DNA of 42,845 nucleotides from an uncultured Bacilli bacterium (GTDB taxonomy: Bacteria > Bacillota_I > Bacilli_A > RF39 > UBA660): positions 1 to 42,845 of the forward strand of contig CALVHX010000006.1 in the NCBI GenBank assembly GCA_944329195.1, read 5' to 3'. Shown piece after piece: positions 1-3,200 of this stretch (positions are counted from its first letter, which is position 1; each line of letters opens with the position of its first letter). The position numbers and the translations under genes were made by a program. Under the pieces are notes generated by a model that saw nothing but the letters and a program-made list of their open reading frames with translations, made no database searches and was not told the origin of the DNA.

Positions 1-105
1 TTATTAGTCAGAAACATTTTAAATAGTAGTGATATATTTGAATCAAAAAATGAGATAATGGGTAATTTATTTATACAGAAACTCATTGTAAAAAATAAGA
101 AATAA
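1..105 (+). CDS. C-terminal end of an unidentified protein (5' partial)
   Basis: Frame 1 is open from the window edge to a TAA at 103-105, giving 34 residues that end in a basic tail (KNKK). I do not recognise the family. The stretch is short and AT-rich, so a chance open frame is possible. It precedes a transposase remnant, so it may also be debris. Confidence 0.25.
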   Translation, partial: LLVRNILNSSDIFESKNEIMGNLFIQKLIVKNKK

Positions 106-204
106 TATATAAGCATAAATACGAGTTTATAAATATTTGCGACAATAGAAATTCTTTTCATTCTAAAATAGGAATGGAGAGGTTTTTATTGCGAAAAAAG
201 GAAA

Positions 205-554: not shown

Positions 555-587
555 AAAAAAATCGAAACAGTGTTTCGGTTTTTTTTC
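555..587 (-). terminator. Terminator downstream of agrD
   Basis: CGAAAC/GTTTCG arms (563-568 and 572-577) close a 3-nt loop. There is an A-run before and a T-run after, so the hairpin can stop transcription on either strand. On the minus strand it lies about 22 nt after the agrD stop and is the natural end of the agrBD transcript. The 379-608 stretch otherwise shows only chance open frames. Confidence 0.7.
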
Positions 588-608: not shown

Positions 609-725
609 TTACTTATTAAGCATGCTTTTTGGCATTTTAGGTTCATCGATTAGCCAAAGTACACAAGCTTTTGTACCAAATGAAGCTGAAACTGAACCAA
701 GCCAAGACAATAATGATGCAAACAT
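609..725 (-). CDS. agrD: AgrD-type cyclic (thio)lactone autoinducer pre-peptide
   Basis: A 38-residue frame with a strong Shine-Dalgarno GGAGGG at 731-736, 5 nt before ATG. It has the three-part AgrD plan: an amphipathic N-terminal leader (MFASLLSWLGSVSASFG), a core around Cys21 (TKACVLWLI), and an acidic/proline recognition tail (DEPKMPKSMLNK) like the DEPxMPK-type tail cut off by AgrB. By analogy with staphylococcal AgrD, where the peptide ends just before DE, the signal would be a ring from Cys21 to Ile26, with a few residues of N-terminal tail. The gene follows agrB by 29 nt on the same strand, the usual order. Exact cleavage points are inference. Confidence 0.88.
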   Translation of the reverse strand: MFASLLSWLGSVSASFGTKACVLWLIDEPKMPKSMLNK

Positions 726-754
726 ATATTCCCTCCTTATCTCATATTCTAATT

Positions 755-1357
755 TTAGGTAGCAACGTAATTTTTATAATTAGAATATGGTAATTGAAAC
801 ATCCTATATACTAAAGGATGAATCATCAAGATTGCTTCCAATAACCCCACACATATATAATTAGTAATAGATAAATCTCTAAATAATATAATTAGTATCA
901 AATATACTGTGCCAGAAATAACTGATAAAAACTTGTATATTTTTCTTCTTTTTGCATTGATAAGAGGTCTTTTATGCGTATCAGCAGGAGCATATTTAAT
1001 CAATAAAAGTAAAGATACAACCGCTACTGATATTTTTACGTAAGGAGCAATAACTACATACTTACAAAGAAGCGCACCACCAATGAAAAATAATGATGAA
1101 ATTATTAAACAATGAATACTTTTTTTGGCATGCATTCCGAAAGCAGTTGTACGTATGATATTATAAAAAATCATAAGAAGTAGTATATCCTTGACAATAC
1201 CAAGAACAAAACCAACTGCCAGAATTACTAACATTTTAGTAAAAGTAAGATATAGTCCTTCGAGCCCGTAGGCAATTTCTTCTAGTTTCTCTTCATCTAT
1301 GCTGCTATCTTTATTTTTAATGATTTCCAATGATTTTTTTAAAAATCTCTCTTTCAT
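755..1357 (-). CDS. agrB: AgrB-family accessory gene regulator protease
   Basis: A 200-residue polytopic membrane protein of normal AgrB length. AgrB removes the C-terminal tail of AgrD and closes the thiolactone ring. The catalytic pair is visible as His76 and Cys83 in GMHAKKSIHC, and the AgrB signature YAPADTHKRP lies near residues 136-145. About five hydrophobic segments follow an amphipathic N-terminal helix typical of the family, so the start at 1357 is needed for a full-length protein, yet no Shine-Dalgarno sequence precedes it (see the promoter entry). It is the first gene of a two-gene agrB-agrD transcript. AgrC of the usual HPK10 type and AgrA are not in the window. Confidence 0.93.
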   Translation of the reverse strand: MKERFLKKSLEIIKNKDSSIDEEKLEEIAYGLEGLYLTFTKMLVILAVGFVLGIVKDILLLMIFYNIIRTTAFGMHAKKSIHCLIISSLFFIGGALLCKYVVIAPYVKISVAVVSLLLLIKYAPADTHKRPLINAKRRKIYKFLSVISGTVYLILIILFRDLSITNYICVGLLEAILMIHPLVYRMFQLPYSNYKNYVAT

Positions 1358-1363
1358 GAACTA

Positions 1364-1372
1364 AGTATAGCA
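1364..1372 (-). promoter_or_regulatory. Extended -10 just upstream of agrB (possible leaderless start)
   Basis: On the minus strand TGCTATACT ends 6 nt before the agrB ATG (hexamer complement at 1364-1369). Transcription from it would begin at or next to the A of ATG, giving a leaderless message, which would explain the missing ribosome binding site. No good -35 box is seen at 17 nt; weak TTGTCG and TTGAAA candidates lie at wrong distances. Confidence 0.45.
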
Positions 1373-1508
1373 CCATAAAATACGACAATTTTCAACAATA
1401 TTTTAATAAAGAACAATAATTCAATAAAGATAATTTGAGTTAACAGCTCGTGAACGATCTTTGAATTATAATTACTCAATTTATAGTTTGATAAAAAAGC
1501 AAAGCATC

Positions 1509-1555: not shown

Positions 1556-1870
1556 ATGGAATTATACCAATATATAATAATTGTAGCAGTTTTATTATTA
1601 ATAGCCCTAGCGGTAGTAAAGATAAATAGAAAAGATTTAAAACTAGAATTTAATAAATTAGTTGACTTACTGGGAGGGAAAGATAATATACTAAGTACTG
1701 AGGTTGAGATGTCGAGATTTAAAGTTACATTAAAAGATATAAGTAAAGCTAATAAAGATGGAATTTTAAAACTCGGAGCAAAGGGAGTCGTTGAAATTGA
1801 TGACCAATTGAAGATAATTTTAGGACAAGATGCAAAGAAAATAAAAAAATATATAGATGATTTAAAATAG
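1556..1870 (+). CDS. Membrane-anchored PTS EIIB-like domain without the phospho-cysteine
   Basis: 104 residues. One hydrophobic helix (about residues 5-20) is followed by a domain that reads like the glucose-type EIIB fold: LVDLLGGKDNI, then VEMSRFKVTLKD, then ILKLGAKGVVEIDDQLKIILGQDAKKIKKYIDDL. In true EIIB proteins the middle motif is xxCxTRLRV, with a Cys three residues before the first Arg that carries the phosphate. Here that position is Glu. The domain is therefore unlikely to transfer phosphate and may have a regulatory or structural role. It stands alone, with its own promoter and terminator, between agrB and a histidine kinase. The fold call is motif-based. Confidence 0.7.
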   Translation: MELYQYIIIVAVLLLIALAVVKINRKDLKLEFNKLVDLLGGKDNILSTEVEMSRFKVTLKDISKANKDGILKLGAKGVVEIDDQLKIILGQDAKKIKKYIDDLK

Positions 1871-1961: not shown

Positions 1962-3200
1962 ATGTCGATGTTTGTAATTGAAAACATATTTTTAAATATA
2001 ATACTAATAATGTTTCCTATATTAATCTACTTTCTTTTATCGTGTTATAAAGATGAAATTAGTAAACAATTCGACGATTTAATATTAAATATATCTTTGG
2101 CAACTTCTCTCTATTTGTGTTTAAAATTTGGCACTATAACAGATGACAATAAAATATTATTATTTTGCAATATACCCATAGTTATAGCATATATGAAGAA
2201 AAAGCCAGTTACTGCTATAGTACTATCCATAGTAAATGTTTTATATTGTTATTTTTCATACGATATAGTTTGCTATAGTACGATACTGAAATACATATCT
2301 TATTTAATAATTTATTTTCTTGCTATTAAGAAAAGAATTAGTATGGGAAGCTTCATCCTTTGTATTGCTGTATTACAAGGATTCTTTCTTTCATTTGAGT
2401 ATTTTTTTCAAGAAGATGTAGATGTATTTAAAGATTTTGTCGAATTATTATTTATAGTGTTTTTATATTATTTAGTAGCTTTTTCAATTGTTTATTTATT
2501 TAAGCTAATAGAAAAAATTAAAACTCTAAATTCATCGATAAAAGACCTTGAAAAAGATAAGAAAATAAAGGATGCTTTATTCAAATTAACTCACGAAATA
2601 AAAAATCCCCTAGCGGTATGTAAGGGATATTTAGATATGATTGATCTTGAAAAGAAAGATAAAGCAATAAAATATATTGATATTATGAAACAAGAAATAA
2701 GTAGAAGCCTAAATATTATGACAGATTTTACTGAATTTAATAAAATTAAAATAGTCAAAGAACAAATAGATTTAAATTTGTTGCTTGATGACTTATATGA
2801 AAGTTTTAAACTAATTCTCAAGGCTAAAAACATCAAGCTAACGTATATAGATAGAGAGGATGAGGATATATACTTTGATGGAGACTACGAAAGAATTAAA
2901 CAAGTTTTAATCAATCTAATCAAAAATAGTATCGAGTCAATAGATGAAAAAGGAGAAATAAAAATATATAGTGATATTTATGAAAAATATATAGATATCG
3001 TAGTAGAAGATAACGGTCAAGGAATGGACGAAGAAACATTAAAGCATTTGACGGAAATGTTTTATACTACTAAAATAGGTGGAAGTGGTTTAGGTGTGGC
3101 CCTATCTAATGAAATCATAAAAGCTCATAGAGGAGAGTTAATCTATAAATCAAAAATAAATGAGGGAACTATAGTTAAGATAAGATTACCAATTAATTAA
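1962..3200 (+). CDS. Membrane sensor histidine kinase, KinB-like
   Basis: 412 residues from ATG 1962, which has GAGGTG 5 nt upstream; an in-frame TTG at 1908 lacks such a site. The first 180 residues form about six membrane helices with almost no extracellular loops. The kinase core follows: His211 in LTHEIKNPLAVCKGYLD (HisKA), N-box VLINLIKNS around Asn322, DNGQGM at 350-355 and GGSGLGVALS at 373-382. The HEIKNP form of the His motif is that of KinB/NtrB-type kinases, not of HPK10 AgrC kinases. No response regulator is adjacent, so it is an orphan, as sporulation phosphorelay kinases are. A role as receptor for the neighbouring AgrD peptide is conceivable but not supported by family type. 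Confidence 0.88.
   Translation: MSMFVIENIFLNIILIMFPILIYFLLSCYKDEISKQFDDLILNISLATSLYLCLKFGTITDDNKILLFCNIPIVIAYMKKKPVTAIVLSIVNVLYCYFSYDIVCYSTILKYISYLIIYFLAIKKRISMGSFILCIAVLQGFFLSFEYFFQEDVDVFKDFVELLFIVFLYYLVAFSIVYLFKLIEKIKTLNSSIKDLEKDKKIKDALFKLTHEIKNPLAVCKGYLDMIDLEKKDKAIKYIDIMKQEISRSLNIMTDFTEFNKIKIVKEQIDLNLLLDDLYESFKLILKAKNIKLTYIDREDEDIYFDGDYERIKQVLINLIKNSIESIDEKGEIKIYSDIYEKYIDIVVEDNGQGMDEETLKHLTEMFYTTKIGGSGLGVALSNEIIKAHRGELIYKSKINEGTIVKIRLPIN

Follow-up and report, generated by a model that had tools for sequence, protein, structure and literature searches.

At the edge of a 42,845-nucleotide stretch of DNA from an uncultured Bacilli bacterium, referred to here as the window, an agrB gene stands beside a very short agrD reading frame, which raises the question of whether this cassette emits a quorum-sensing signal without a receiver or forms part of a larger agr system. 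Drawing on gene identities, gene order in relatives, an agrC fragment inside the window and a ring spacing that is constant in the family, all of which are read from sequence, we conclude with a probability of roughly 0.9 that an ordinary and complete agr quorum-sensing locus, belonging to an uncultured Bacilli lineage with small genomes, has here been cut in two by a contig break.

The agrBD cassette and its predicted signal

The agrB gene (755–1357, minus strand) encodes a 200-residue membrane cysteine endopeptidase for AgrD processing, which matched the Pfam AgrB family (PF04647) with E=1e-36 in a profile search. The protein carries His76 and Cys83, a pair that is invariant in 133 of 133 homologues; no sequence match to AgrB was found among solved structures. 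The neighboring agrD (609–725, minus strand; MFASLLSWLGSVSASFGTKACVLWLIDEPKMPKSMLNK) spans 38 codons, comprises a leader, a Cys-containing core and an acidic tail, and scored 23.5 bits against the NCBIfam AgrD profile (TIGR04223), above the curated cut-off of 19. Its reading frame is kept across the genus, being intact in all five other members examined (61–89% identity), and comparison of the window with its three nearest relatives showed more synonymous than nonsynonymous codon changes, with third positions varying most, indicating that the frame is under selection rather than a product of chance. The preliminary description of this DNA, which had proposed an agrBD cassette with a 38-codon agrD and had counted loss of the frame in related strains as evidence against it, is borne out by the two profile matches, and the feared loss was not seen.

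The ring predicted from this precursor is CVLWLI (Cys21–Ile26), followed by the C-terminal tail DEPKMPKSMLNK. We aligned 134 family AgrDs by the acidic pair at the start of the tail; at each locus, the closest small frame that followed agrB and contained a tail-like motif had been taken, and three non-AgrD frames were discarded by eye, so that the survey is biased toward AgrDs with such a tail. Counting back from the acidic tail, the ring nucleophile stands at the sixth residue in the window and altogether in 123 of the 134 proteins (106 with Cys, 12 with Thr, 5 with Ser); spacings of seven (9 AgrDs) and five (2 AgrDs) were also found, all with Cys. The five residues after the nucleophile position are on average 92% hydrophobic. 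Ring sequences are almost never shared, with 132 distinct ones among the 134 AgrDs, which implies species-specific signals; CVLWLI is unique to the window in this set, in line with the earlier claim of a new core sequence.

The cleavage site is a prediction, and the constant spacing between nucleophile and tail favors, without proving, Ile26 rather than Leu25 as the end of the ring, in agreement with the Cys21–Ile26 ring that had previously been the first choice. A working agr system with the standard five-residue ring, CVLWL, and Ile26 in the cleaved tail would follow the staphylococcal rule (PMC12312760) and be compatible with the variability of position 26 in the genus (I, A, S or F). We nevertheless consider this version unlikely because in those 123 AgrDs the distance from the nucleophile to the acidic tail is exactly six residues whatever the sequence between, and six-residue rings have already been predicted for another agr group (PMC10301443).

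Receptor and regulator on two contigs

The absence of an agrA-type regulator or HPK10 kinase nearby had led to the suggestion that the receiver must be elsewhere or different. Both statements proved wrong, and the locus was described as receiver-less because the contig ends inside agrC. Position 1 of the window is base 1 of contig C6 and falls within that gene: bases 1–105 (plus strand), which had been overlooked, encode the C-terminus of AgrC, that is, its last 34 codons (LLVRNILNSSDIFESKNEIMGNLFIQKLIVKNKK) followed by the stop, with the remainder lying past the contig end. This segment resembles the AgrC C-termini of the related loci L074, L054 and L076, with 75% identity over 32 residues to the closest relative, L074. 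The genome search for agrC and agrA that the preliminary description had proposed was informative. With the L074 AgrC as the query, it produced a single match, at C6:1-99 (E=1.6e-8; 73% identity; residues 402–434 of 443), and at the end of contig C15 we found agrA, a LytTR response regulator gene with both Response_reg and LytTR domains above the cut-offs, and, after it, the initial ~20 codons of agrC. The latter consist of a new frame, MSEIISSFVSCTIFLISLY, opened by the last bases of C15 and resembling the start of the L074 AgrC.

A genome of the same genus (G140, locus L054) has a single contig on which the genes of the C15 end are succeeded by agrA, agrC, agrD and agrB and then by the genes of the C6 start. 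Synteny with this contig covers the last ~6 kb of C15 and also holds for the start of C6, the C15-end genes being 68–89% identical to their counterparts, and C15 and C6 are therefore neighbors separated by a gap inside agrC. Thus, agrB and agrD are flanked by agrC and agrA, which run convergently to them, in a single locus split by the assembly gap. AgrC, a kinase of the HPK10 (GHKL) type, is represented in this genome by both of its ends and at full length in relatives, where HATPase_c_5 scored above the cut-off and six hydrophobic segments are present; as the middle ~390 codons are absent from the assembly, an intact AgrC is predicted here from those relatives.

The distance from the agrC stop to agrD (106–608) is ~500 bp, compared with ~50 bp in relatives, so the locus has been rearranged at this point. 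The ~450 bp of extra DNA includes a 57-codon frame (205–378) that matched no Pfam or NCBIfam family at the cut-off and has no convincing second copy in the same genome. Terminator-like hairpins follow agrC (153–182, plus strand) and agrD (563–577, minus strand, at the end of the agrBD operon), both recognized by consensus only in a pattern scan that found 3 such elements against 0.3 expected.

The extra DNA with its unassigned frame, and the position of the contig breaks inside agrC, would also suit a decaying locus in which agrC is disrupted and agrBD produces a signal without a receiver. This scenario appears distinctly improbable, given that both ends of agrC are in frame and that the nearest relative, L074, has two tandem agrC copies encoding proteins 74% identical to each other, a kind of repeat that can break a short-read assembly. 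A similar tandem repeat could explain the contig break in our genome.

On the other side of agrBD, positions 1962–3200 of the window encode a polytopic HisKA/HATPase kinase that is conserved in the genus beside agrBD and is an orphan, having no response regulator next to it; given that the genome encodes a Spo0A-like regulator (C2:27487-27828), this kinase may be of the sporulation type. The notion that agrBD lacks an AgrC of its own and signals through this kinase to Spo0A is the least credible of all, and we rejected the kinase as the agr receiver once agrC and agrA were found: although it has no regulator gene next to it, is divergent from agrBD in six genus members and shares the genome with a Spo0A-like protein, a dedicated agrC/agrA pair is present on the opposite side of agrBD, other genera possess agrBD–agrAC without this kinase nearby, and the operon of the kinase is equipped with a conserved promoter-like site of its own. 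Reading the locus as a complete agr system interrupted by a contig break removes the false claim of a receiver-less agr.

Distribution in the family and Thr and Ser cores

With agrB present in 195 of the 291 genomes of the family, agr signaling is the norm in these uncultured Bacilli with ~1 Mb genomes. Our literature search found no report of agr in this family and no paper combining RF39 and agr, the RF39 papers that were found making no mention of agr. Convergent agrC and agrA occur in nearly every relative from L054 to L085 with enough flanking DNA; in L077, L074 and L079, the sequence ends before agrC and/or agrA. In most other genera, agr adjoins Csp-like, HPF-like and SecA-like genes (assigned by eye from L056, not by profile search), and in this genus, an EIIB-like gene and the orphan kinase.

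Several features of these neighborhoods deserve mention in their own right. The EIIB-like gene of the window (1556–1870) encodes a membrane-anchored, stand-alone PTS EIIB-like domain, with the motif EVEMSRF, EAEMSRF or EVDMSRF in six species; judged against the canonical motif, the position of the phospho-accepting Cys is, we presume, acidic. Two tandem agrC-like genes are found at one agr locus in L074:10799-13723, L083:4569-7247 and L084:2215-5092, a possible receptor duplication, and those of L083 and L084 sit beside a single agrA. In L057:7662-8973, agrC is divided between frames of 309 and 113 aa and may encode a frameshifted receptor.

Although the window itself encodes a Cys-core peptide, Thr replaces the ring Cys, with the spacing of six residues unchanged, in L026, L032, L042, L102, L116, L119, L133, L141, L172, L180, L191 and L192, and Ser-core AgrDs occur in L051, L117, L143, L149 and L155. 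The AgrB proteins beside the Thr-core AgrDs have the His/Cys pair intact, and agrC and agrA lie alongside at L057 and L059, both Thr loci, and at the Ser locus L068. Among nine Thr/Ser AgrDs scanned, six passed the AgrD cut-off, two fell just below it (18.2 and 16.6 bits) and one was unmatched; the Cys-core AgrD of L074 scored 18.9 bits on the same profile. On the AgrB tree, a quick reconstruction with one very long branch and many weak forks, a minimum of seven changes is needed to account for Thr versus Cys and of three for Ser versus Cys.

The odds appear even to us that the AIP rings of the family are six residues long and that their nucleophile has changed from Cys to Thr in some AgrDs (12 of 134) and to Ser in others (5 of 134), with the His/Cys pair of AgrB unchanged. 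If real, signals closed by a Thr lactone would represent a chemistry for which we found no description in agr systems: a search of one literature collection, where absence is not proof, returned no description of Thr-closed AIPs. Together, the Thr and Ser cores would amount to a testable shift in ring chemistry. The locus in the window is an ordinary example of a kind already known, and the Thr versions in its relatives, not its own peptide, are the unusual lead and the more interesting point.

Proposed mechanism and comparison with known agr systems

In the mechanism that we propose, where the chemistry, ring end, export, receptor pairing and autoinduction are all predicted, AgrB would cleave AgrD before Asp27 and close a thiolactone between Cys21 and Ile26, yielding the ring C-V-L-W-L-I. 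The peptide would be exported, with its N-terminal leader trimmed, and recognized by AgrC, the HPK10 kinase encoded convergently, which would phosphorylate the LytTR regulator AgrA. AgrA would then activate agrBD, possibly via a box upstream of agrB (1438–1455, minus strand; GTTCACGAGCTGTTAACT) that could be an AgrA (LytTR-type) operator. This GTT-N8-GTTAACT block recurs in five of the six genus members, and the sixth has a sequence close to it; the same genome has two copies, no more than for a reversed-pattern control, and a family-wide search for LytTR operators gave only a weak 11-bp spacing signal, with no clear counterpart of the genus box.

The agr systems of the Clostridium acetobutylicum type, with predicted six-membered rings and separate agrBD and agrCA operons (PMC10301443), share with the locus described here both the separate units and the predicted six-residue thiolactone ring, but come from another lineage, whereas agrA and agrC of the window's locus run convergently towards agrD. 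The agrBDCA system of Staphylococcus aureus has the same four proteins, the AgrB His/Cys pair and the leader, core and acidic tail of AgrD; it is organized as one operon and follows the staphylococcal pattern of five-residue AIP rings (PMC12312760), whereas our locus has agrBD and agrAC as convergent units and a spacing that points to six residues. Ser lactones are found in S. pseudintermedius and Enterococcus faecalis (PMC12312760), and the fsr/GBAP system of the latter resembles our locus in its non-standard ring size and resembles some relatives within the window's family in having an oxygen nucleophile as well. GBAP itself, however, is a nine-residue Ser lactone, whereas the predicted ring of the window is closed by Cys and has six residues.
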